This document shows, piece by piece, positions 17,718 through 34,090 of a DNA stretch of 64,000 nt. The notes under the pieces are model-generated. The model was not told the DNA's origin, made no database searches, and saw nothing but the letters and a program-made list of their open reading frames with translations. Each line of letters begins with the position of its first letter. Position 1 is the stretch's first letter. This stretch comes from Calothrix anomala FACHB-343 (lineage in GTDB: Bacteria; Cyanobacteriota; Cyanobacteriia; Cyanobacteriales; Nostocaceae): positions 1-64,000 of the forward strand of contig NZ_JACJQG010000046.1 in assembly GCF_014696435.1 (NCBI RefSeq), given 5' to 3'. Made by a program: the position numbers and the translations under genes.

Positions 17718-19091
17718 TCAAAGATTACTTTCAATCAATTGGCGATACTCGCTTTTCTGCTTCACACCTTTGACTTCTTTGATCAGTTCTTTATTTTTGA
17801 ACAATTGAATCGTCGGTGTGCCTGTCACCCCAGCATTTTCAGCAATATCGCGGTCTTTATCGATATCAATTTCGACAAAGTGAATTTTGCCGTCAAATTC
17901 ATCAACCACTTTATTGAGTATTGGTTTCAGGGTATGACAAGGGCCGCAACCAGGCGCAACATATTTTACCAACAGCAAGCGATCGCTTTCATGGAAAAGT
18001 TTCCGCAAAGCATAACCACCTTCATGGCGTGTCGCATTTAAACTAAATTCTGCTTGTTGTTCAGCTTCAGTTTTCTTCGCTGCTGGCTGATGTTCTAATT
18101 CATTAGTTGGTGTTTCTGGCTGTTGATGGAATTCTTGAATCAATCCATTAGAAGATAACCAGCGTTCAGCCAACATCGCGGACATACAACCAGTCCCCGC
18201 AGCCGTGATTGCTTGGCGAAACTCATGATCTTGCACATCACCAGCCGCAAATACACCTTCAACGCTGGTTTCTACAGAACCATGCTTGGTAGCAACATAT
18301 CCAACTTCATCTAGTTCTAATTGTCCCTTAAATAAAGAAGTATTCGGAGTGTGACCAATAGCGTAGAACAAACCTTTCACATGTAGTTTGCTTTCTTCAC
18401 CAGTTTTGGTATTGCGGATTTTTACCCCATCCATGTGGCCGTTACCAAAGATATCTACCGCTTCTGTGTTCCAATGTACCTGGATTTTAGGATTGCTCAA
18501 AACCCTGTCTTGCATGGCTTTAGAAGCCCGCATTTTATCAGAACGCACCAGCAGATTGACTTTAGAACCATACTTGGTTAAGTAAATTGATTCTTCCGCC
18601 GCCGAGTCACCAGCACCAATCACAGCCAGTTCCGCACCGTGGAAAATCGGCGTTGCACCATCGCAAATCGCACAAGCAGAAATTCCCCGACTCCAAAATT
18701 CATGTTCGCTGGGTAAACCTAAACGCTTGGCAGTTGCACCAGTGGCAATAATAATACTGTTGGCTTTAACTTCCCTTTCCTCTGAGCGGATAGTAAACGG
18801 ACGCTGAGTCAAATCAACTGATATTACATCTTCTGTATATAACTCAGCCCCCCAGCGTTCAGCTTGCGCCTTCATTCTGTCCATTAATTCCGGCCCGGTA
18901 ATCCCTTGGGGAAACCCAGGAAAGTTTTCCACTTCCGTCGTTGTCATCAATTGCCCACCAGGCAAACCCCCTGCTTGGAAGCCTTCAAATACCACAGGTT
19001 TCAAGTTAGCTCGCCCGGCATATATCGCCGCCGTGTATCCTGCTGGCCCAGAACCGATAATTACCAAATTTTCTACTGTCGGGTTGGTCAT
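17718..19091 (-). CDS. trxB: NADPH-thioredoxin reductase C (NTRC), reductase-thioredoxin fusion
   Basis: 457 residues. N-terminal flavoprotein: FAD motif [17 protein letters not shown] at 11-27, redox-active CAICDG with Cys140 and Cys143, NADPH motif GAGDSAAEE near 157, and the second FAD segment [11 protein letters not shown] charged linker (about 315-350) joins a full thioredoxin domain with [12 protein letters not shown], Cys382 and Cys385. This is the NTRC architecture of plants and oxygenic bacteria, which passes NADPH electrons to 2-Cys peroxiredoxin and other targets, including in the dark. Normal NTRC length. It lies upstream of cysK on the same strand. Its own promoter must be in 19092-19397. 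Confidence 0.93.
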
Positions 19092-19397: not shown

Positions 19398-19937
19398 ATG
19401 AAAACCGAACTTAAAGCAAAATTCCTTCAGCACATTCTCGGTAAAAAGAAAGACGAACAAGGTTTTACACTTATTGAACTGTTGGTAGTAATCATCATTA
19501 TCGGTATTCTGTCTGCGATCGCTCTACCCTCATTCCTCAACCAAGCTAAGAAAGCTAAACAATCAGAATCTAAGACCTATGTTGGTTCCATGAACAAAGG
19601 TCAACAAGCTTTCTACACAGAAAATGACGCATTTGCTAGCACTGTGAATGACACAGGTATTGGTATTAAAACCGCAACTCAAAACTATAATTACTTTACA
19701 ACAGCAGTAGCAGGAACAGGAACTGGTACCAATGCTACTGCCACCAGCTACTCAACTAATGTTGCTACTGGTCTGAAAAACTATGGTGGTAGAGTTTACT
19801 TAGAAGCCGTAGGTGCAAACTCTGAATTAACTAGTATTGCTTTCCTTTGTGAATCAGTCAACGTAGGAACCGCTGGGAATGCTTTGATGGAAACAACAGC
19901 AACTTCTTGCAACTCTAGCGGCAAGTTTATTAAATAA
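19398..19937 (+). CDS. pilA: Type IV pilin (PilA-like)
   Basis: 179 residues. A short charged leader (to residue 21) ends in G before FTLIELLVVIIIIGIL, the class III signal that prepilin peptidase PilD cuts between G and F, with the invariant Glu5 of mature pilin. The hydrophobic helix continues to about residue 45, then KKAKQSESKTYVGSMNKGQQ, usual for cyanobacterial major pilins. The globular part is rich in Thr, Ser and Asn with two Cys near the end (FLCESVN and ATSCNSS), giving the D-loop disulfide. Role: pilus fibre for motility, adhesion and DNA uptake. A GT41 protein follows 236 bases downstream, which suggests the pilin could be glycosylated. Confidence 0.9.
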   Translation: MKTELKAKFLQHILGKKKDEQGFTLIELLVVIIIIGILSAIALPSFLNQAKKAKQSESKTYVGSMNKGQQAFYTENDAFASTVNDTGIGIKTATQNYNYFTTAVAGTGTGTNATATSYSTNVATGLKNYGGRVYLEAVGANSELTSIAFLCESVNVGTAGNALMETTATSCNSSGKFIK

Positions 19938-19955
19938 ATATCAATCAACCATATA

Positions 19956-20020
19956 CTCTTACTCTATGCAAGTAAGAGATATCTATTCACTCTCGGAAAC
20001 CTTTTCGAGGGTGAATATTT
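19956..20020 (+). terminator. Double hairpin after the pilin gene
   Basis: First hairpin CTCTTACT/AGTAAGAG (19956-19978), second TATTCACTCTCG/CGAGGGTGAATA with one G-T type mismatch (19984-20017) followed by TTTCTGTT. Probable terminator or attenuator between pilA and the OGT-like gene. Confidence 0.6.
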
Positions 20021-20173
20021 CTGTTAGATTTAAAATCTGTTTGAAGAGGCTATTAATAATAATAGATTTTTCGTCAATATTATTTTGATTAATATTATTA
20101 AAATTCAAATATTAACTTACTGAAATTCAAATATTGAGATATAACAGAACAGTAAATTAACTCAGAATTTAAT

Positions 20174-22402
20174 ATGACTTTATCAAAGCCTCATGCAAAC
20201 AAAAATAATTGGCAACAGCAAGCAGAAAAATATCTAATTGAGGAAAACTATATTGCTGCTGCTAGTCTTTACGAACAGGCAATTGAGATAGAGCCAGATA
20301 TCAAGTCTCACTACTGGAATTTAGGATTAATGTTGCTTCTGCAAGGACAAGAAACAGAAGCACAAATGACTTGGTTGATGGCATTATCAGATACAGAAGA
20401 AGAACTGTATACAGCAGAATTACTAGAGGTTTTAGAAAAGGAATCGGAACGTCGAGTAAATATTAAAGATTATCAAACGGCATGGGCAATTTGCCAACAT
20501 ATCAGAGAAATCAATCCTGAAAATATTAATAATTTGTTCAATATTATTAAAATCGAGCTTTTAACGGAAAATTTTACCGAACATACCACTATTTTATTAG
20601 AGTTCATAATTGAGTTATTACCTAAAAAAATAAATAATTGTGATTTTGAATTATTATTAGATGTAATTATTAATCTTTTAGTATCTAAGCCAACTGAAGA
20701 ATCTGTATTTAATTTTTTTGAAGCTTGTCTCAATTATTATTCAGAACCCTTAATTATTATTGATACAGCAATGCTGGAAGTTATTAACATTGCTGTGTTT
20801 AAAAAAATGCCGGGATTAGCAGCACGTTTTGCAGAATGCTGTTTACATCAAGCACCTAGGCATCGCGGAGTTATTACACAATTATCCCATTTTTACCAAA
20901 ATTCTCAACAATATACTAAAGGTATAGAAACAGCCAAACGTTATTATGAATTAGCAACTACTCTAGCTGATAAAGTTTCTGCTAATGCTTTAATAGTCAG
21001 AGCTTTTATGACATCGGGTAGTTATTGGCAAGAAGTGTGTGCTAGCTTGCAGCAGCAAGTATTACTTGCAAAAGAATTAATACAAGAGAATCCAAATAAT
21101 CTTGACAAAGCAACTTCTGCTGTACTATTTAATTCAGTATTTTTCTTACCATATATTTATGACGAACCTCAAAATAACCATCGGATTCAACATGAAATTT
21201 CTCGTTTGTGCCAGCAGAATCTAATCAAACACTATAATGAAATTTCGCCTCGTCAAGATGAGTTATTAATATTGCGTAAAAAAAATGCTATTAAAGATAG
21301 AAAAACTCTAAATATAGGTTATATTTCTCATTGTCTAAAAAGACATTCTGTAGGTTGGTTATGCCGATGGCTATTTAAATATCATAATCCAGAAAAATTT
21401 AAAATTCATAGCTATTTCTTGCATGATTCAAATACTGTAGAACAATTCACAAAAAACAATTTTATAGATAACTCTTATAAATTCCATCAATTTGGAATTT
21501 ATGATTATGGCATCTGGGATCAAATTCAAGCAGATGAAATTGATATTCTAGTGGATTTAGATAGTATTACCTTAGATCATTCTTGTGAGCTAATGTCCAT
21601 CAAATCTGCGCCCATTCAAGTAACTTGGTTAGGCTGGGATTCCTCAGGGTTACCATCAATTGATTATTTTATCGCCGATCCTTACGTATTACCTGAATCT
21701 GCACAAGATTATTACAGCGAAACAATTTGGAGATTACCCCAAACTTACATAGCTGTTGATGGTTTTGAAGTAGATGTACCTAATTTACGACGAGAAAATC
21801 TAGATATTCCTAGTGATGCCATAGTTTATTTTATGACTCAAAAAGGATATAAAAGGCATCAGGAACATTTACAATTACAGTTACGAATTATTAGAGAAGT
21901 TCCTAACAGTTATCTTTTGATTAAAGGTGATGCCGATCTAGAATCATCAAAAGAATTTTTTGAAGGTATGGCAGAAACAGAGGGTGTTGATTTCTCTCGC
22001 CTCAGATTTTTACCTGGTGCGCCTACCGAAGCAATTCACCGTGCTAATTTAGCAATTGCTGATATAGTACTTGATACCTATCCTTATAATGGTGCTACAA
22101 CAACATTAGAAACTCTGTGGATGTGTATACCTGTAGTCACAAGAGTTGGACAGCAATTTGCAGCGCGTAATAGTTACACCATGATGATGAATGCAGGGAT
22201 TACAGAAGGCATCGCTTGGACTGAAGATGAGTATGTAGAATGGGGTGTACGCTTGGGTAAAGATGAAAAATTACGACAACAAATATCTTGGAAGTTGCGC
22301 CAATCAAGGCAAACAGCGCCATTGTGGAATGCAAAGCAGTTTACTCGTGATATGGAACAAGCTTACGAGCAAATGTGGCAGAGGTATGTTGATGGGAATT
22401 AA
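20174..22402 (+). CDS. TPR protein with GT41 (SPINDLY/OGT-like) glycosyltransferase domain
   Basis: 742 residues. Residues 10-330 are TPR-like helical repeats (AASLYEQAIEIEPDIKSHYW, then more divergent ones). Residues about 370-740 match the O-linked GlcNAc transferase superfamily: TLNIGYISHCLKRHSVGW, IDILVDLDS, APIQVTWLGWDSSGLPSIDY, RLRFLPGAPTE, DIVLDTYPYNGATTTLETLW. Such proteins add a sugar to Ser/Thr of proteins in the cytoplasm. The gene follows the pilin gene. An OGT homologue is reported as needed for hormogonium motility in Nostoc punctiforme (from memory), so a link to pilin or motility is reasonable but inferred. It ends convergently with the giant glycosyltransferase gene. The donor sugar is unknown. 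Confidence 0.85.
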   Translation: MTLSKPHANKNNWQQQAEKYLIEENYIAAASLYEQAIEIEPDIKSHYWNLGLMLLLQGQETEAQMTWLMALSDTEEELYTAELLEVLEKESERRVNIKDYQTAWAICQHIREINPENINNLFNIIKIELLTENFTEHTTILLEFIIELLPKKINNCDFELLLDVIINLLVSKPTEESVFNFFEACLNYYSEPLIIIDTAMLEVINIAVFKKMPGLAARFAECCLHQAPRHRGVITQLSHFYQNSQQYTKGIETAKRYYELATTLADKVSANALIVRAFMTSGSYWQEVCASLQQQVLLAKELIQENPNNLDKATSAVLFNSVFFLPYIYDEPQNNHRIQHEISRLCQQNLIKHYNEISPRQDELLILRKKNAIKDRKTLNIGYISHCLKRHSVGWLCRWLFKYHNPEKFKIHSYFLHDSNTVEQFTKNNFIDNSYKFHQFGIYDYGIWDQIQADEIDILVDLDSITLDHSCELMSIKSAPIQVTWLGWDSSGLPSIDYFIADPYVLPESAQDYYSETIWRLPQTYIAVDGFEVDVPNLRRENLDIPSDAIVYFMTQKGYKRHQEHLQLQLRIIREVPNSYLLIKGDADLESSKEFFEGMAETEGVDFSRLRFLPGAPTEAIHRANLAIADIVLDTYPYNGATTTLETLWMCIPVVTRVGQQFAARNSYTMMMNAGITEGIAWTEDEYVEWGVRLGKDEKLRQQISWKLRQSRQTAPLWNAKQFTRDMEQAYEQMWQRYVDGN

Positions 22403-22510
22403 ATTAATACAGTTTTAAAAGTAATGGGAGCATCTTGCTTCCTATTAGCAGTAGGGGGCTTTCCGTTCCGCACTACTCCAGGTTTCAAAATGGACGAGGT
22501 TTAATAAAAA

Positions 22511-22536
22511 ATACCAGAGATTTTAATCTCTGGTAT
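22511..22536. terminator. Bidirectional terminator
   Basis: Perfect 12-bp arms ATACCAGAGATT and AATCTCTGGTAT with a 2-base loop, midway between the stops of two convergent genes. A-rich on the left flank and moderately T-poor on the right, so it would act mainly as a hairpin stop in both directions. Confidence 0.7.
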
Positions 22537-22576
22537 AAAGCTCAAGCCTATTGCCATCCAATCTAGGCTTTTATAA

Positions 22577-25500
22577 CTACACAGGCTCTATCTCTAAAGT
22601 CGAAGAGGTTAACTTCTCCAACTCCCAAGTATAAATTTCTTGGATTGGCAGATGTGTTATTGCTGGCTTATTTTCATTTTCTAAAACAATTCTTCCTGTC
22701 AGACTAAGTAATAAAGCTTGCCACTGATTATCACCGAGTTTATCGACCAAAGAAATTTCTAATCCCTCAGTTATATCTAAATCTTCATTCATCAAGAGAT
22801 TCATAGCAACACTTGACAAAAAGATTTCTGCATCCTCCACTGCAATATTATTTGTATCGATAAGCAAGGTAGTTTTTTCACTGTCAGGATAATTAGCAAG
22901 AGCTTTGATAACTCGTTCTAATTCTAAACCAATTGATTCTTCCGACTGAGTCCAATCTGGGAAAATAATCAGGTTAATATCTCTCAAGGGTAGATTTTGG
23001 CTGAGAGTTTCTACAAGATAATTGTTGAAGACTTGTTTAAATAAGCTTTCAATCTTAGCTGAATAGGAGCGGCTATCCAAAAAACTAGGATTAGCTTGCA
23101 TTTTTTCCTGAATTTGCTGCCTCTTGTTGTGACGTAATTCAGGATCGTTACCAAGTGCGATCGCTAACTTGATATAAGACTCTTCACTATCAGCAACTAA
23201 ATCAGAAATCTTCATTGATCGGATCATAGCAGCACCCATTGCCGAGCGAAAACTATTACCTTGTCTAGCAATTACTGGTAAATTAACCTGTAATGGCTCA
23301 ATGAGAGAAGTAGTCCCAGCAAATGGATAAGAATCAAGATAGACATCAGCAATTTTTAAGTATTCCTTAACCTCTTCTCGATTCGGTACAGGTTGAGGAG
23401 CTAAAACTATCAATCTATCTGCTGATATACCATATTCTTCAAAGACGTTAATCAAATAATTTTCAAAAGATTCCTTTGGATAAGAATTTGACCAATTTGG
23501 GCCATACGGGAGTAATACTAAAACTGAATTTGGCACTTCTACAATAATTTTGGCCCATGTATTAATTAGCTCTGGAATCATCTTATAGAAGTTAGCACCA
23601 GATATAAAAGCTACAGTATCTTCAGCAATCCCTAACTTTTTTCGAGTAACTTCAACATTTACTTGTTCTTGTTCGGTACCATAACTAAAACAATGAGCAG
23701 TCCCTTCTAATTTCAGCAACTTTTCTCGATACTGTTCTTGTGCTGTTGCTGATGGATCGGTGAGGGTACCAGAAATATAATAATCAATGTGCCGTATTCC
23801 AGTTGTGACAACTGAACCCCCACTAGTAACTTGTATTCTGGCTAACCTGTGCATTGCCAATAAGCAGATTTGATTTGTTACTGCTGTCACATTGGTAGCA
23901 ATGAATAATATATCTAGATCGTCCGCACGAATTGTATTGACTTGTTGTGTTAAATCTTGTGGTAGCCGCTTGAAGAAGTTGGCACAACTTTGGCAATATT
24001 GTTCTAAACTATGACCTGTTTTAGTTAGAGAGTATAAAATAACTTCAAACTCCCTACTCAGATACTCATAAACTGGAAGATAAGCAAATGTTTCCGAGCC
24101 TGGTGTAAAATGCGATGCTAAAATTCCCAATCGGATTTTTTTTCTATTTACAGGTATTTCTGTAAACTCATAATCAACTTCATGTCCTTTGTTTTTCAAG
24201 AAAAACTCTAGTATATCTGCCCGCTTAACATAAATATCTTTCAGATTTGCTTCATTAAAGTATAGCGGAATGAAATTAGCAATTTGAGCAAAATAGTTAA
24301 CTGCTGTATGCAAAACTATAGAGTCAGGTTCCTGAGATATAGATGTATGTAAGTAATCCAGCCACCCCTGCATATAGTTATAGTAATTATTTGCTTCTCC
24401 AATTTCTTGGAAGTGAACAGGAGAAGCAAATAAAAATTGCACATAGTCCTTCACTAACCAATGAGGTATATCAGAGAGATCGTAAGGTAATCGTAACCGA
24501 TCGGCACGCTGATACAGCATCACTGCAAGTAAGTATTGAATTGCTTTTGGCTGCTCAAAACCTGCTTCAATATGCTGAATTAGGCTATCAACAAAAATCT
24601 GTTCTTCATCAGTTAGACTCTTGTATTTGATGCTACTATTCACTAACACTTTATGTGTTTCCCCTAATATACCTGCGTACATAATAGGCATCTGCTCAGG
24701 GGTTATATTCAGCCATTGATCTGCTAGTTGTCTGCGCGATTGACGCAAGTCTGAATCCTGTTGACTCAAAACCGCATTTTGATAAAAAGCTAGCTGTCTT
24801 GTAACTTGAGGGTAGCGTTGATCGTTATAGATTGCATGAAACAGCTTTTGATAATCTGAGAATATAGCTTTTTCTACAGATGCATTGCGACGAGTTTGTT
24901 GCTGCGAATGTATCCGAAACTTGGATAAATATTTATCGACAAAACCAATTTTGTATTGGCTCATAATTCGGAGCCACATTTCTAAATCTACGAGTTGACA
25001 AAACTCAGAATTAAACAATCCCAATGAATCAAAAATCTCTTTCCTAATTAAGACTGTACTTGGCTCACCTACTTTATTAATTGGGGCATCAAAGATATTC
25101 GGAGATTGAAGTAGCTCCTGTCCTAGTTGAATTGGTTGTAATTTTGACCAAGCTTTGTGAACATCCTTTGCCTCATGCTCTCTTAAAAAGTTGGAATCAT
25201 ATATAGTATCCCCAGTATTAGTAAATATTTTTCTAGGAGAGAATACCAAACCTATTTCTTTATCTTTCTCAGCTATGTTCACCATTAATGCAACAGCATT
25301 TGGCTCTAATAAATCATCTTGAAATAAAAACTTGATATATTTACCTTGAGCTTGAGAAATGCAGAAATTCCAATTATTAGCTAGTCCGTATTGACTATGT
25401 TCAAGAATTGAAAATTTTACGGATGATTTTTGTAGTAAGGACTTAGCAATGTCAACTGTTTTGTCAGTAGAACTATCATCAGACAAGATAATTTCTAAAC

Positions 25501-28381
25501 TTGGGTAAGTTTGAGACAAAACACTATTAATTGCTTCAGCAATAAATTTTTCCCCATTATAAGTAGGAATACAAATACTTACCAAAGGTTGAGAAAGAGC
25601 TTGTTCCTTATTTTCTTTACCTTCATGAATAAATTGTGTACTCTCTTGATTCTCTGATTGAATCTGGAAATTGAGATGCCTAATTAAGTGAGGACTAAAA
25701 CAAGGATCGCTATTTAACTTAATTCCCCATCTATCCTGCATTAATTTAAATGCAGCTGCTTCAAGCTGTAAAAGCTCTTCTTGACTAATTTGCTCTTGCC
25801 AACTTTTTAACTCTTGGTGAATTAGCCTGACATGCGGGATATAAATATTGTGATAACCATGACTTTTTATTTTTAAACATAAATCCACATCATTGTAATG
25901 AATAGGTAATGCTTCATCAAATCCACTAATAGTATCAAATACCTCTCTACGGCACATTAAACAAGCACCTGTGACAATGGAGATATTATTAATCAATAAA
26001 ATATTGGTTACAGCATGATCTTCAGCAATTCTCGTCAACCCTTTGTAGATATGATTGGCTATTTTGCCTAAACCTAGTACCGAGCCTACATGTTGAATAG
26101 AATTATTAGGGTAAGTTAATAATGTACCGACAGCACCAATCGATTCTCTTTGAACCTGCTCAACCATTGCATTGAGCCAATCACCTTGAATAATTTGAGT
26201 ATCATTATTCAAAAACAGTAAATAATCACCTTGAGATTTTTTAACAGCATAGTTATTCAGTACAGAATAGTTAAAGGGAATTTGATGCAAATAATGTTTA
26301 AATTTACCAGGTTGCTGAACTTGCCAATGTTGAATACTTTCCTCTGTTGTGGATGTTATATTACCAGTCTGTATAACAATCACTTCATAATTAGGATATA
26401 GGGTTTCAGCAAAGATTGATTCTAGACATTGGTTTAAGTTTGAGCAAAAATCTTGAGTAAGAATAATAATACTTACTAATTTATAATCTTCTATCTCGTA
26501 ACGAACATGATAATGTCCGGGAATGTTGGCATCTTGTAAAACTACTCCTTTCTCACCTCTTCTCTGTAGCGCATCTGTTAAAGCTTTGATTGCTGCTTCA
26601 TAAGCGTAAGATTTTGCAGTTGTAGAAGCAGATGTAGAACCAGCATGAAGACGCCAATGATAAAGAACTTTAGGTATATGAAATATTTTCTTGGTTTCTT
26701 CTGTAAATCTCAAAACTAAATCGTAATCTTGGCTTCCTTCATAACCTACTCTAAAACCACCAATTTTATTGACAAGCGATCGCCGATAAACACCCAGATG
26801 GCAAGTATACATCCTAGAGAAAAAGGAATCAGGACACCAATCTGGTTTATATGTAGGATAAAGAAATTGATTATGATCATTAACTTTATCTTCATCTGAA
26901 TAAATCATATCCGCATCTGGATGCTGATTGAGTAGCAAGGCTACTTCGTATAAAGCATCTGATGTTAATAAGTCATCATGATCGAAGAGTGCTATAAACT
27001 CTCCCGTAGCTATTTCTATCGCCGAGTTAGAAGTACGAGAGATATGACCATTTTTATCCCTGAAGACTACTTTAATGCGCGAGTCTTTTTGAGCATATTC
27101 TCCTAATATCTTTCTCACATGAGCTTCTGTAGAAGCATCATCAGCAATACATAATTCCCAATAAGGATAAATTTGATCTAATACAGATTCAATAGCATCT
27201 CTTAAGTATGTTGACGGGGTATTATAAACAGGAAAAATAATACTAAAAATGGGTTTATATTTTAGAGAATGAGTATTAGCAGACAAGAAGTTTAAATTTC
27301 TTTTAATTTCATAATCAAAATGATTTATGATTAAATTATATTTTACTAATTCTTTTTCTTGTTGTTTTAATATTTCCTGATTTTCAATTGATGATTTTTT
27401 ATTTAAAAAATCTATTTGATTTGTTAACTTGTACAAATCAACCAAGGAAAAATTATATTTTGAAGTTGACTGTACCACAATATCTGGATCTTGGAATAGC
27501 TTAAACAGCTTTTCACACCCAATAATTTGTACATAACTAGAGTTATGCTGTAAATATAAAAAAGCTTTTTCTAATTCATAATCGATTCTATTACTAAATT
27601 GTGGGTTTCTAATTATATCTGCAAAGGCAGCTTTAAAAAACTCTTTTGGAACATCGTCAAATATACTTCTATATATTTGCTGATATTCAAAATCTGAACG
27701 AATAGAATTAGATGGATTACTCAAGTTTTTTCCTTGAGTAATGACTCTATATTTAACTAATGGTTCAGGTAAGATATATATTTCATCTCTTTTAATTAAT
27801 TTAAGCCACATTTCAAAATCTTGTAGCTGAATAGACGCTAAATTGAAAAGTCCAGTTTCTAAAAGTAGTTCTTTACTTATCAACCCAGTGACAGCATTAA
27901 TATAGTTGCCCCGAAAAAATAAATATCTTAGGATTTCATGTCTAGCTCTATTAGGATGATTAAACAATTGTTCTAGAAAATGAGGACAATCTATAAGTTG
28001 ACTGCTTTCATTAATAAAGTCTACCCAAGAAAATACAACTCTTATATCAAAATTTGAAAGATAATTATATTGTTTTTCTAGCTTAGAAGTGTAACAAATA
28101 TCATCTCCAGACATTAAAGCAATATATTTTCCTTTAGAAGCTAATATAGCCTTATTTGTTGCACTACTTGTGCCTTGGTTTTTTTGATAAATATAAGTAA
28201 TTCGCTTATCATCGAATTTTTTAATAATGTCATCTGTTCTATCTGTAGAGCCATCATTTACAATAATTAGTTCAATATTTTCGTATGTTTGAGATAGAAC
28301 ACTTTCTATAGCCTCGCCTACATATAATTCATGATTATATGTAGTCATAATTACACTAATTAAAGGATTAGATAATGTCAT
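22577..28381 (-). CDS. Giant five-domain glycosyltransferase (four GT2-like plus GT41-like)
   Basis: 1934 residues. Domain 1, residues 5-240: [32 protein letters not shown]. Domain 2, 375-620: [38 protein letters not shown]. Domain 3, 632-890: [38 protein letters not shown]. Domain 4, 930-1165: [41 protein letters not shown]. Each is a GT2-type domain with its own nucleotide-binding DxD-like site. Domain 5, about 1410-1800, is a GT41/SPINDLY-like fold ([16 protein letters not shown] ... [20 protein letters not shown]), followed by an acidic tail of about 130 residues ([16 protein letters not shown]). The stop is 174 bases from the OGT-like gene, convergent. Its start overlaps the aminotransferase gene by 14 bases, so translation is coupled to deoxysugar synthesis. 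Likely builds a surface polysaccharide or protein-linked glycan. Confidence 0.85.
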
Positions 28382-29492
28382 TTTTTAATACCTTTGATAA
28401 AATTTCAATAACTCTTTTTACTTCTGTTTGATGCAGATGAGGATTAATTGGTAAACTAAGTATTTCTTGAGATAAAATTTCTGTAATTGAATAGCTCTTA
28501 GTTTGCAGAAATCTACCTAGTTGTTCGGCATAAATATTTGATAAATGGGGCGGTATAGGATAGTGAATTAAAGTCTTAACTTCCGCATCAGCTAAATATT
28601 GTTTTAATTTATCTCTATACTTGTGACTAATTACAAATAAATGCCATACTGGTTCAGCCCATTCAGGAACGTAGGGTAATTTTAAATTAGTAATTTTTTG
28701 TAATTTGTCTAGGTAGTATATAGCTAGTTTTTTACGGCGTTCATTCCATTCATCTAACTTAGCAAGCTTCACCCTTAAAAAAGCAGCTTGTAATTCATCT
28801 AAGCGAGAATTAAATCCTTGAATTTCGTTATAATATTTAATTCTTGAACCATAGTTACGCAGTAAACGAATTTTATCAGCTAATTTCTCATTATTAGTAG
28901 TAACTGCACCTCCATCCCCAAATGCGCCTAAATTTTTACCAGGATAGAAACTAAATCCAGCTGCATCTCCTAAACTACCAACACGACGACTTTTGTAACG
29001 TGCGCCATGAGCTTGAGCAGCATCTTCAATTACTCTAATATTGTGTTTGCTAGCAATTTGATTAATAGAATCTATATCTGCTGGCTGTCCATAAAGATGA
29101 ACGGCAATAATTGCTTTTGTTTTAGAAGTAATGGCTACTTCTATTTTGGTCGGATCAATATTATAAGTTTTTATATCTGGTTCTACTGGAACTGGTATTG
29201 CTCCTGCATAAGAAACGGCTAACCAAGTGGCGATATATGTATTAGCTGGAACAATTACCTCATCACCTGATCCTATTTCCATTGCTCGCAAAATTAAATG
29301 TAAACTGTCTAAGCCATTAGCCACACCAACACAATATTTTGCTTCACAATAAGCTGCAAATTCTTCTTCAAAAGCTTCTAATTCCTGACCCAAAATATAC
29401 CAGCCAGACTCCATAACACGCTGATAAGCTGCATCAAGTTCATCTTTTAATTCTAAATAAGGCGTCTTTAAATCAAGAAACGGGACTTCCAT
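28368..29492 (-). CDS. DegT/DnrJ/EryC1-family sugar-nucleotide 3-aminotransferase
   Basis: 374 residues. PLP-dependent aminotransferase of the DegT family: NTYIATWLA (near 84-92), [11 protein letters not shown] (Asp157, Gln160 region) and [15 protein letters not shown] with Lys186 as the PLP-binding lysine. The opening ([20 protein letters not shown]) and total length fit sugar aminotransferases such as FdtB/QdtB that turn a dTDP-3-keto-6-deoxyhexose into the 3-amino sugar. The neighbours decide this reading: a 3,4-ketoisomerase gene overlaps its start by 20 bases and an N-formyltransferase gene lies about 250 bases further upstream. The 4-amino (DesV/RfbE) alternatives cannot be excluded by sequence alone. 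Confidence 0.85.
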
Positions 29493-29904
29493 TGTCTATT
29501 TTCCTTACAGCCTTTATAAATTCGTCATAATTGCGATAGTAGTCAGATTCTTCATAGTAAGTTGATGCTAAAACCATACAAACTGAACCAGACGAAAAAT
29601 TATCTAGTTCCCGCCAGACCATAGAGCTAATATAAAGACCGTAATATGAGCGATTTAGATGAAAACGCCATTGACCATGTCCATCATCTAAAACAACATC
29701 AAAACTACCGGACATAGCAATAATTAGTTGTTCCAATTGTTGATGTGCATGTCCACCTCTCTCTGCACCTCCAGGAACATCATAGAGATAATAAGCTCTT
29801 TTTATATCAAAAGGAACATGCTTTTTACCTTCTATAAATGTTAAATTCCCTCTTGGATCTTGTACTTTTGGTAAATGGATAATACGGCAATCTTCTATAG
29901 TCAT
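29473..29904 (-). CDS. FdtA/WxcM-like sugar 3,4-ketoisomerase (cupin)
   Basis: 143 residues in the FdtA/QdtA cupin family: [14 protein letters not shown] near 13-26, then [18 protein letters not shown] with His52 and His54 as expected catalytic histidines, [12 protein letters not shown], and the C-terminal [12 protein letters not shown] typical of the family. These enzymes convert dTDP-4-keto-6-deoxyglucose into the 3-keto isomer before amination. Whether the product has the galacto (FdtA) or gluco (QdtA) configuration cannot be read. Start ATG at 29904. It overlaps the aminotransferase gene by 20 bases, so the two are translationally coupled. Confidence 0.85.
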
Positions 29905-30148
29905 AAGAATAATTGAATTATTTCAAATAAATGTAACTTTGAGATTTTGTTAATATTTTTTAGCATAAATAATATAAATTAATCCATCATACAATTAATA
30001 TCTAGATTATCTAAGGTTATCTAGTAGGTTTCAAATTTATATTTAAAAATTATTTAATTTATGTTTTTATTTAATTGCTTACTTACAAATAAAATATTTA
30101 TTTGAATTTGTAAAGTCAATAAATATAAATAATTTTATCTTACTATTT

Positions 30149-30973
30149 TTATAGTTTCTCCTTATTAAGTCGCAGGTCATAATCTATTGTGGAAATATCA
30201 ATGTAGTCCTGGGTACTATATAATATAGTGCCAGGTTTCTTTCTTGTGATTGAATCTAAAATGTTGGCTGAAACTATTTTAAAACCATATATTACAGGAA
30301 TTTGATATTCTTTAAAATTAAAAGCTCTTATTTGATTTCGTATTTCAAAAGCACTCTTATTTAAATTGATACTTATATTGCTGAAATTAATTGAACATTT
30401 AGAATAATATGAGGATTCAATAGCAGATTGTTGAACTGTTTTATAATGACCAGATACTAAGTCATAGATATTTTTCTTAAATAAATAAATTCCATGTTCT
30501 ATGTATTTAAGATATAAATCTCTACTGGTATCATGAAAATTTATATCAAACTTAATTTGGTCTATTATCTCTCCTGTATCTATTCCTGCATCTATTGTAT
30601 GAAGTGTTACACCACTATATTGATCTCCATTTAAGATGGGCCATACAGATGTATACATTCCTTTATACTTAGGAAGTAAAGAGAAATGAATATTAAACAG
30701 AAGATTGCTCTTAAATTTTTCAGGAAATATTATTTTATCATATTGAAGAGATATAAATAATAAGTTATTTATGTTATACAAATCCTCAAGCTTTGCATTT
30801 ACTAAATTATGCTCTTGAGAATATTTCTTAAATGATTTTTGAAATAAGTCTTTACCAGTATCTGCTTGATTAAAGCAAACAATTAAATCTTCTGGTAATA
30901 CTATTTTTTCGGATATCAAGAAACTAGTGGATTTTACGGCTATGTCATTTTGTCCAGCAATACAAATTTTCAT
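30149..30973 (-). CDS. Sugar N-formyltransferase
   Basis: 274 residues from ATG 30973, which follows AGGAG (the frame starts 2 codons earlier at a TTG). A formyltransferase fold with the catalytic triad Asn96-His98-Asp134 (counted from the longer frame): SLLFNIHFSLLPKYKG and TIDAGIDTGEIIDQ. This pattern is that of N10-formyl-tetrahydrofolate-dependent enzymes; genes for such an enzyme next to a DegT aminotransferase and a ketoisomerase usually make N-formyl amino sugars (VioF, QdtF, FdtF types). The 244 AT-rich bases between it and the ketoisomerase leave open whether it is in the same transcript. A short C-terminal region beyond the core (KKPGTILYSTQDYIDIST) is normal for such enzymes. Confidence 0.8.
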   Translation of the reverse strand: MKICIAGQNDIAVKSTSFLISEKIVLPEDLIVCFNQADTGKDLFQKSFKKYSQEHNLVNAKLEDLYNINNLLFISLQYDKIIFPEKFKSNLLFNIHFSLLPKYKGMYTSVWPILNGDQYSGVTLHTIDAGIDTGEIIDQIKFDINFHDTSRDLYLKYIEHGIYLFKKNIYDLVSGHYKTVQQSAIESSYYSKCSINFSNISINLNKSAFEIRNQIRAFNFKEYQIPVIYGFKIVSANILDSITRKKPGTILYSTQDYIDISTIDYDLRLNKEKL

Positions 30974-31144
30974 TATCAACTCCTAAATAAGCCCAACAAT
31001 AGCATTTGTGTAGAAAAATTTTCTATTTTTGAACTATGAAAATATTCTTTTAAGATCATCTGCAAGCATCTTTTTAATCACAATTTATTTTTTGTAGTAT
31101 CTAAACTTTTTGTAATATTGGTTTAGCGATCTCGCCTGTCGCTA

Positions 31145-31537
31145 TTATTTACCTACTTCTTGCTTCATTTTCTCTAAAACGACCTTGTAGTCTTGGCGTT
31201 CTGGGTGTAACTTCACTAGCTTTTCTAAAATTTGAATAGCACCTTGAGTATCGTTCAACTTGATCCGTACATTTACTAAACCTTCTAAAGCTAGTTGGTT
31301 TTGTGGTTCTCTTTGTAACACCATTTCCCAACCCTTTGCCTGTTCCTGTAATAAAACATCAGGAGATTTCTGAGTTACAGCCTTTGGCTGTGGTTCTTGC
31401 AAAGCTTTTTGGATGACAGGAACTGCTGAAAACAAGATGGGGCCTAAGAAACATGCAATTGACACTATTGTTAAAAATTTTTGTCGGCGTTGAATCTGCT
31501 TCTTGCGATTAATTAAGTATTCTTCTCCCGCTCCCAT
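31145..31537 (-). CDS. Membrane-anchored TPR-like protein
   Basis: 130 residues. A polar, basic N terminus (LINRKKQIQRRQK), a single membrane helix about residues 23-44 (TIVSIACFLGPILFSAVPV), then one or two TPR-like helix pairs (WEMVLQREPQNQLALEGLVN, VRIKLNDTQGAIQILEKL, HPERQDYKVVLEKM). Such small cyanobacterial proteins are mostly unstudied. It would face the periplasm or cytoplasm according to the positive-inside rule: basic N terminus inside, TPR part outside. No operon partner. An overlapping shorter frame is not called. Confidence 0.7.
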   Translation of the reverse strand: MGAGEEYLINRKKQIQRRQKFLTIVSIACFLGPILFSAVPVIQKALQEPQPKAVTQKSPDVLLQEQAKGWEMVLQREPQNQLALEGLVNVRIKLNDTQGAIQILEKLVKLHPERQDYKVVLEKMKQEVGK

Positions 31538-32752: not shown

Positions 32753-34006
32753 TTATTGGCAAGCAGTTAATGCCAAAGAAAGCTCTTTAGCTGTCTGATA
32801 GCGATCGCGTGGTAAAGGCTCTGTTACCCGGTCAATTATTTCTCTTAATTGCGGCGTAATTGTCGGAATACTGCTGACATCAAAGCGAAAATGTCTTCCA
32901 CGTTGATGGTAAAACTTGAAAGGGTTTTCCCCAGTCAGCAAGAAAATTAAAGTTGGGCCAATAGCGTATAAATCTGATTGCGTCAGGGGTTGTCCTCGTT
33001 CTTGTTCGGGAGCGCAGTAACCCTCTGCACCAATCCGAGTACCTGGTGCTGTACCAATTTCTTTAACTGCACCAAAATCTAGCACTACTATCCGATTATT
33101 AGAATTTTTCACCATTAGATTAGCGGGTTTAATATCCCGGTGAATCAGTGGCGGTTGTTGGCTGTGGAGATAGTCTAAAATATCACAGGTCTGGATCATC
33201 CAGGCGATCGCTTGTTTGGGGGTAACTGGCCCTGTGGTATAAATCCGCTTTTCTAAATCTTGCCCGTGGACTAATTCCATAGCCAAGTATTTTTTGCCAC
33301 TTTCGACAAAAAAATCATAATATTTGGGTATTCCCGAATGGTTCAAGGATCTGAGAGTATAGGCTTCGCGTTCAAATAACTCTTGGGCTTTGGCAATTTT
33401 TGCCATATCAGCATTCATCTGTTTTAATACCAGCAGTTGGGGATGTCCCACAATTGCACCTGCTGTATCCCAGGCGAGATAGGTAGTACCCATACCGCCT
33501 TGTCCTAATGTTCGTAATACTTGATACTGGCGAATCTTCTTTTCTACTGTCAGTGGTTGACCGCAATGAATACAGAACAGATTTTTCGGGGAGTTTCCTT
33601 CATGGGTACAGTGAACAAATGAAGGTGCAATTGTCTTTTCTGTTGAGCCAGGAATCTCTGGTTGTAGCAGCCAAGAATCGGGTGCTGTTACCTCTTGCAA
33701 TTGGAATTTGATGATGGGGCCTCCCTGTGCTAATTGCAGCAGAGAATTATCTGGTAGTTGGCTCTGAGTCACAAGCACACCATTGAGGAAAGTGCCATTA
33801 GTGCCGTGACTAATCACCTGCCACAAACTACCATTTTTGGCAGAATTAACTTGTTTAAGTTCTAGATGGTAGCGAGAAACTAAAGTATCGCTCAAAACAA
33901 CGTCATTATCTGTCGCTCTGCCAATCTTAATCAGGGAAGAGTTTTCAAAATACCATTGCTTGAGTGGTGTTTTTTGTTGCGGTTCTAGCAGGGTCAGAGT
34001 AACCAC
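32753..34006 (-). CDS. FHA-domain serine/threonine protein kinase with zinc ribbon
   Basis: About 417 residues. FHA domain near 15-100 (IKIGRATDNDVVLSDTLVSR, HGTNGTFLNG), a short zinc ribbon CTHEGNSPKNLFCIHCG, then a Hanks-type kinase: glycine loop LGQGGMGTTYLAW, VLKQM lysine, HRDIKPANL catalytic loop and DFGAVKE metal motif. The expected active-site residues are all present. The C-terminal part ends soon after the kinase (ELSLALTACQ). Start: the frame opens at 34063 but its first 13 or so residues come from the repeat at 34021-34070; a GTG at 34006 starts the conserved VTLTLLEPQQK, so I place the start there. It is followed, upstream on the same strand, by a PP2C gene: a kinase/phosphatase pair. 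Confidence 0.85.
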   Translation of the reverse strand: MVTLTLLEPQQKTPLKQWYFENSSLIKIGRATDNDVVLSDTLVSRYHLELKQVNSAKNGSLWQVISHGTNGTFLNGVLVTQSQLPDNSLLQLAQGGPIIKFQLQEVTAPDSWLLQPEIPGSTEKTIAPSFVHCTHEGNSPKNLFCIHCGQPLTVEKKIRQYQVLRTLGQGGMGTTYLAWDTAGAIVGHPQLLVLKQMNADMAKIAKAQELFEREAYTLRSLNHSGIPKYYDFFVESGKKYLAMELVHGQDLEKRIYTTGPVTPKQAIAWMIQTCDILDYLHSQQPPLIHRDIKPANLMVKNSNNRIVVLDFGAVKEIGTAPGTRIGAEGYCAPEQERGQPLTQSDLYAIGPTLIFLLTGENPFKFYHQRGRHFRFDVSSIPTITPQLREIIDRVTEPLPRDRYQTAKELSLALTACQ

Positions 34007-34020
34007 AATACAAACTAATA

Positions 34021-34090
34021 AGGTAATGGGGCATGGGTCATGGGGCTTGGGGCATTGGGTCATTGGGTAGAGACGCGATTAATCGCGTCT
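34021..34090. repeat. TTGGGTC/TGGGGCA repeat with palindrome AGACGCGATTAATCGCGTCT, copy 3
   Basis: Imperfect heptamers (TGGGGCA, TTGGGTC) run into the perfect 20-bp palindrome 34071-34090, which is followed by GTACAATT. Same composite order as at 13413-13485 and 47877-48016. Confidence 0.8.

Follow-up and report, generated by a model that had tools for sequence, protein, structure and literature searches.

In a 64,000-nucleotide stretch of Calothrix anomala FACHB-343 (contig NZ_JACJQG010000046.1, positions 1 to 64,000; hereafter the window), a type IV pilin gene, pilA, and an ogtA-like gene for a GT41 transferase face a cassette of four genes for a giant multi-domain transferase, an aminotransferase, a ketoisomerase and an N-formyltransferase (Table 1). 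The original prediction had placed these six genes within 11.6 kb as a pilin and glycan island, and both the open reading frame (ORF) coordinates and Pfam agree with it. Comparing the locus with its relatives, we found that different gene sets take the place of this cassette in a slot between pilA-ogtA on one side and a small TPR gene and a kinase-like gene on the other, an arrangement that the original prediction had missed.

Table 1. Genes, gene parts and domains at the pilin locus, in positions of the window.
Feature	Position	Strand	Product length	Basis or content
Left framework gene, thioredoxin reductase-thioredoxin fusion	17718-19091	-	457 aa	Named from sequence reading
pilA, type IV pilin	19398-19937	+	179 aa	Pfam Pilin_GH, N_methyl
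ogtA-like GT41 transferase	20174-22402	+	742 aa	Pfam Glyco_transf_41 PF13844, 156 bits
Giant transferase	22577-28381	-	1934 aa	Pfam: four GT2 stretches and GT41
Giant transferase, conserved 3' half	22577-25588	-	aa 932-1934	Final GT2 stretch with the GT41-like domain and the tail
Giant transferase, exchangeable 5' half	25589-28381	-	aa 1-931	Three GT2 stretches
C-terminal tail domain	22580-23014	-	aa 1790-1934, about 140 aa	Alignment across locus transferases
fdtB/qdtB-like pyridoxal phosphate (PLP) aminotransferase	28368-29492	-	374 aa	Pfam DegT_DnrJ_EryC1; best PDB match QdtB 3frk
fdtA/qdtA-like sugar 3,4-ketoisomerase	29473-29904	-	143 aa	Pfam FdtA, 196 bits; best PDB match 5tpu
fdtF, sugar 3-N-formyltransferase	30149-30973	-	274 aa	Pfam Formyl_trans_N, Formyl_trans_C; FNIHF and GIDTG motifs; ATG start at 30973, in-frame TTG at 30979
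Right border gene, small TPR protein	31145-31537	-		Pfam TPR_19 at its cut-off; one predicted membrane helix
Right framework gene, FHA and serine/threonine-kinase-like protein	32753-34063	-		Named from sequence reading

The pilA-ogtA pair and the cassette converge, which rules out the pilin and sugar genes as a single operon. The overlaps of 14 bases (28368-28381) and 20 bases (29473-29492) that had been taken to couple the giant transferase to sugar synthesis are real; they couple only fdtA, fdtB and the giant transferase and leave the pilin genes outside, since pilA and ogtA on the plus strand converge on a minus-strand cassette. The stretch has a low G+C content, which falls from 44-45% in the outlying framework genes to 39% for both pilA and the small TPR gene; fdtF is lowest at 26.5%, and the remaining sugar and transferase genes range from 31 to 36%. 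The pilin has a Ser/Thr-rich head (28 of 112 residues, by composition), and the ogtA product aligns with human OGT and SPINDLY, its His391 (H391) and Lys560 (K560) lining up with OGT residues that we take to be catalytic. By ORFs and Pfam, a GT41 gene adjoining a type IV pilin gene, the hallmark of the cyanobacterial pilA-ogt unit, is present in the window. A pilA-linked GT41 gene that takes part in glycosylating PilA has been published before, a precedent overlooked in the original prediction: the review PMC12288463, citing Khayatan 2017 and Suban 2022, describes a GT41 gene beside the major pilin gene and a part for Ogt in PilA glycosylation and pilus assembly, and PMC8546353 states that Sll1696 of Synechocystis, encoded near pilA, may promote PilA1 glycosylation.

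Relatives were searched with the framework genes and the positions of the matches were compared, with co-occurrence counted over 88 genomes and fdtF sought in 218 genomes of the family. The same gene order recurs: a thioredoxin reductase-like gene, pilA, ogtA, a cassette, the small TPR gene and the kinase-like gene. Because this framework recurs in relatives, the co-location is beyond chance. The reductase-like gene lies at most 12 kb from ogtA in 42 of the 61 genomes that have both (of the 19 exceptions, 15 carry the two genes on separate contigs), and the kinase-like gene at most 25 kb from ogtA in 28 of the 49 family genomes with both (different contigs in 14 of the other 21). ogtA positions were entered for 73 of the 75 genomes with ogtA matches, the weak or partial matches of G097 and G115 and weak secondary matches being excluded, and kinase-like gene positions for 52 of the 73 genomes with matches to that gene, those of the window's family. 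Strands and membrane helices were counted in 31 loci, namely the window, Nostoc FACHB-892 and 29 of 40 compared stretches, which were picked since their framework genes shared one contig and are not a random sample. Cassette ORFs of at least 150 aa were called mechanically, with false ones possible, and one of the 31 loci (L107) has none; 117 of the resulting 130 ORFs lie on the strand opposite ogtA.

The content of the slot varies widely among relatives. In the window it is FdtA-FdtB-formyltransferase. G001, the nearest genome by markers, carries instead a near-complete pseudaminic set, with PseB, PseC, PseI, a Pse methylase, a WbuX amidotransferase and HisH over their cut-offs, a cytidylyltransferase-like protein under its cut-off, and a fusion protein combining a glycosyltransferase-28 domain with an acetyltransferase domain, whose 65% identical relative in G007 is PseG over the cut-off; the G007 slot has PseB, PseC, PseG and PseI over cut-off. 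LegB, LegC, NeuB and NeuC are found over cut-off in G005, together with a CBS-nucleotidyltransferase and a cytidylyltransferase, while G002 and G006 hold a phosphoenolpyruvate (PEP) mutase, a phosphonopyruvate decarboxylase and a 2-aminoethylphosphonate aminotransferase (PhnW-AepZ), all over cut-off. The G004 slot encodes a glucose-1-phosphate cytidylyltransferase and RfbH over cut-off, plus epimerase/dehydratase-like genes with no model over cut-off; that of G003 encodes glycosyltransferase and methyltransferase proteins only, and that of G008 one transferase only. Thus, special-sugar or phosphonate sets of five kinds are spread over seven of the nine genomes of the genus, one kind in each. 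Family scans covered all or nearly all slot ORFs of at least 150 aa in G001, G002, G003, G004, G005 and G008; in G017, FACHB-892 and UCD121 they covered everything except the transferase and/or fdtA, and in G006, G007 and G036 a part; the remaining loci were assigned by ORF length and similarity only.

The association of such sets with ogtA extends beyond the genus. In G036, of another genus, PseB and PseI are over cut-off in a pseudaminic-type set that is 59-88% identical to that of G001, with an ogtA just 50% identical. PseI is over its cut-off in 9 of the 88 genomes and lies at most 10 kb from ogtA in six of them, including G109, G111 and G114 of other families; a naive binomial calculation for this proximity gives about 5e-14, which is too strong because of shared descent. 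Neither FdtA nor PseI is exclusive to the pilin locus, where one of three FdtA genes and six of nine over-cut-off PseI genes reside. One FdtA gene off the locus (G005:C147:15595-15978) is in the genome with legionaminic genes in its slot. Separately, at L069:5400-14037 and L073:12726-16587, aminoethylphosphonate genes stand beside a cyanobacterial pilin, L069 adding a cytidylyltransferase-glycerophosphotransferase-like protein; these genes hint at phosphonate-decorated pili.

A comparison with G001 locates the borders of the exchange. The reductase-like and kinase-like proteins of the two strains are 99% identical, and at the DNA level the pilA side is 90-91%, ogtA 87% and the 3' half of the transferase gene 78% identical (22617-25588). 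From 25589 to 31147, including the giant transferase gene 5' of 25588, blastn finds no match in G001 at E 1e-10, and the match resumes at 31148 with 95-96% identity onward. Thus, on the right the exchanged DNA stops abruptly where the TPR gene ends, whereas the left border lies inside the transferase gene. XisH-XisI pairs found in two genera close to ogtA, toward the cassette (L083:2786-3528, L089:2976-3730), and transposase-like genes (OrfB_IS605 at L003:3569-4900, DDE at L073:5295-6181) suggest mobile DNA at the slot borders. A Gp49-like and HTH_37 pair, presumably toxin-antitoxin-like, lies between transferase and ogtA at L003:14044-14741.

Parts of the window cassette persist elsewhere: fdtA is kept in Nostoc FACHB-892 (88%) and UCD121 (86%) by DNA, with proteins 90-91% identical, in slots otherwise filled by genes for methyltransferase, ATP-grasp, epimerase or HAD proteins or by unassigned genes. 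Only end fragments of fdtB remain there, between intact fdtA and the transferase side (L003:10433-10680 and L002:10433-10562, in FACHB-892 and UCD121). The fragmentary fdtB beside a kept fdtA, together with the low G+C content that reaches its minimum in fdtF, could mean that the cassette is a passenger in decay, with no product; this is most improbable, as the window genes are open and overlapping and retain their active-site letters, and several pseudaminic, legionaminic and phosphonate steps are over cut-off in the slots of relatives.

The three sugar enzymes of the window fit, by family and nearest solved relatives, the proposed route from the deoxythymidine diphosphate (dTDP) sugar dTDP-4-keto-6-deoxyglucose to a 3-formamido-3,6-dideoxyhexose, and the two upstream enzymes are encoded elsewhere in the genome, at G000:C65 (RmlA, glucose-1-phosphate thymidylyltransferase, TIGR01207, 484 bits; RmlB, dTDP-glucose 4,6-dehydratase, TIGR01181, 492 bits; both over cut-off). 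RmlA and RmlB would supply the 4-keto sugar, FdtA would shift its keto group to C3, FdtB would aminate the C3-keto sugar and FdtF would formylate it. The ketoisomerase has its best PDB match (139 bits) in 5tpu, titled TDP-quinovose 3,4-ketoisomerase, and keeps His52 and His54, which are invariant across 16 sequences; for the 2pa7 enzyme, PDB titles record the mutants H49N and H51N. An aminotransferase acting on a 4-keto sugar, which would make the proposed product wrong, is not what the sequence indicates: QdtB 3frk is the best PDB match at 430 bits, the listed NCBIfam models for 4-amino sugars are far under their cut-offs, and the enzyme is a candidate 3-aminotransferase; Lys186 sits in what we take to be the usual PLP motif. 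The formyltransferase matches 4xcz, TDP-3-aminoquinovose N-formyltransferase, at 274 bits, 5uij at 256 and WlaRD at 231. It was rejected as a methionyl-tRNA or glycinamide ribonucleotide transformylase, since PDB chains of these kinds reach at most 63 bits versus 274-276 and the fmt model 93 bits against a cut-off of 201.5. Among the 218 family genomes, a relative at E 1e-30 or better is found in one, the window strain itself.

The original prediction had left the sugar open between Fuc3NFo and Qui3NFo. The best solved relative of each enzyme belongs to the Qui3N branch (5tpu, 3frk, 4xcz; that of 3frk presumed from its name, QdtB), with small margins, and the product would most likely be dTDP-Qui3NFo. 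The galacto sugar dTDP-Fuc3NFo in place of the gluco sugar, whatever the acceptor and independently of the other alternatives, is somewhat unlikely: FdtA 2pa7, presumably galacto-type, trails 5tpu by only about 10 bits for the window ketoisomerase, and window Arg18 falls at the position given Arg in the QdtA double mutant Y17R/R97H (by its title), where 2pa7 also has Arg, but residue 98 is Arg as in 5tpu and His in 2pa7.

The catalytic heads of the locus transferases differ, comprising GT2, GT4-type and CmcI-like methyltransferase modules (the CmcI type in G005), and their C-terminal tail has an invariant core that includes FPDW in 12 aligned sequences. The tail occurs in 61 of the 88 genomes with 84 copies, several of them repeated in one gene or in neighbours, so that it is not quite a single-copy domain; 71 of the 84 copies are near an ogtA or kinase-like match. 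Across the 88 genomes, 59 have both tail and ogtA, 2 the tail only, 14 ogtA only and 13 neither (Fisher p 1e-6, uncorrected for kinship; with G097 and G115 included, 16 have ogtA only and 11 neither), and the tail lies at most 15 kb from ogtA in 48 of the 59 genomes with both. A weaker second tail copy lies off the pilin locus at G005:C126:158828-159223. Pfam assigned no best stretch to the tail in the nine tail-bearing proteins scanned, the only PDB match of the tail profile (E 0.49) is probably due to chance, and a structure model of the GT41-like domain and tail (two sequences) gave no usable fold, with a predicted local distance difference test score (pLDDT) of 39. We propose that the tail may serve as a docking domain.

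Taken together, we consider that this is a strain-specific pilin-glycan type locus, with a probability of about 0.6, in which the sugar would be attached to the pilin. The unusual sugars on the pili may thus vary from strain to strain, with a formylated amino sugar apparently used here. On the cytoplasmic face, OgtA would add the first sugar to Ser/Thr of the prepilin; the giant transferase, its tail bound to the pilin, to OgtA or to some other common partner, would extend the chain and add the strain-specific residue, and the glycosylated pilin would be assembled afterwards. In flagellin glycosylation, nucleotide sugars are likewise transferred to protein in the cytoplasm. Recombination within the conserved flanks would exchange the cargo and create pilus "serotypes," on which phages, predators or grazers, kin or (plant) hosts might, as a conjecture, exert selection. 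The broader proposal is more tentative, and we hold it at somewhat less than even odds: that cyanobacterial type IV pili have strain-specific glycan serotypes, whole surface types being exchangeable between strains as cassettes, derived from formamido-dideoxyhexose, pseudaminic acid, legionaminic acid, aminoethylphosphonate or cytidine diphosphate (CDP)-dideoxyhexose, and built on the prepilin in the cytoplasm by one modular transferase whose tail docks any head to pilin or OgtA.

Several observations weigh against such a pilin-glycan locus. Fourteen genomes have ogtA without the tail; the tail-bearing transferase of G033, G040 and G016 is beside the kinase-like gene, on the same contig as ogtA but far from it; G095 has a weak tail match 206 kb from ogtA, and in seven further genomes tail and ogtA are on different contigs. 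Sugar-nucleotide genes were not found in the slots of G003 and G008, two of the nine genus genomes. Three of the nine PseI genes are on contigs with no ogtA match, only one of eight sub-cut-off PseI matches is at the locus (that of G005, NeuB by a better model), and FdtA is off the locus in G005 and G116. The G004 cassette is on the strand of ogtA, and cassettes also decay, since fdtA stands by a largely deleted fdtB in FACHB-892 and UCD121. Enrichment of the SigJ box, given as GGGAATACT in PMC6495340, was not found, with an uninformative 16 matches at no more than one mismatch versus 13.4 expected.

The cassette might instead serve a polysaccharide of the cell surface, be it hormogonium polysaccharide, exopolysaccharide or lipopolysaccharide, with its proximity to pilA-ogtA incidental or due to shared use in motility. 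O-antigens and capsules, too, contain pseudaminic and legionaminic acid, 3,6-dideoxyhexoses and N-formylated sugars; transferases for hormogonium polysaccharide and teichuronic acid are matched, under cut-off, by GT2 stretches of the giant protein; and the remote transferases of G033, G040 and G016 point the same way. However, no flippase, polymerase or exporter was recognised in the cassette proteins scanned, which cover some loci beyond the window in part, and a simple hydropathy test predicts one membrane helix in each of only 5 of the 130 cassette ORFs and none in the other 125. Cytoplasmic transfer from nucleotide sugars to protein therefore fits better than polymer export, and the tail domain and PseI cluster at ogtA, so that we regard a polysaccharide role as unlikely. 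Since GT41 enzymes of eukaryotes have many protein substrates, another possibility is that OgtA and the giant transferase modify other cytoplasmic or secreted proteins, with the pilin a mere genomic neighbour. This is quite improbable given the published pilA-ogt link and PilA glycosylation role, as reviewed in PMC12288463.

If a slot tied to the type IV pilin is confirmed, close strains could vary phage adsorption, grazing, self-recognition and plant symbiosis yet keep motility, and the tail domain, found mostly at this locus, may tie interchangeable transferases to one acceptor. A literature search, mostly of journals open without subscription, returned, among the matches listed, no report of cyanobacterial pilin bearing pseudaminic or legionaminic acid, and none of them describes a variable sugar slot at pilA, this range of cargo or the shared tail; as a sign of novelty this is weak.

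Both the enzyme pathway and the pilA-ogt pair belong to known kinds. The published pair has the same adjacency of GT41 and pilin genes, to which the window adds a variable cassette, a modular transferase and a shared tail that are not mentioned in the excerpted text of PMC12288463. With the Qdt/Fdt pathways (QdtA, QdtB, QdtF, WlaRB, WlaRD) the window shares all three enzyme families; its formyltransferase lacks the C-terminal part of the 417-residue 4xcz chain, since the match is limited to residues 21-289, and, unlike the known ones, its genes adjoin a cyanobacterial pilin. Variable glycan loci are familiar from capsules, O-antigens and flagellins. Capsule and O-antigen loci likewise have swappable cargo between fixed flanks, but in the slots scanned here neither a flippase nor a polymerase or exporter was recognised, and the window cassette proteins include none of the three that would mark a Wzx/Wzy or ATP-binding cassette (ABC) exporter locus. 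Flagellin glycosylation islands of Campylobacter and Pseudomonas similarly place variable sugar and transferase genes, including pseudaminic and legionaminic sets, by a filament subunit gene. A Pfam scan of seven window proteins found no flagellin gene or Maf-type transferase; here the acceptor would be a type IV pilin, the transferases are GT2, GT4 and GT41 proteins with a shared tail, and the cargo extends to phosphonate and CDP-dideoxyhexose sets. The locus may work like a flagellin glycosylation island while not being a member of that group.

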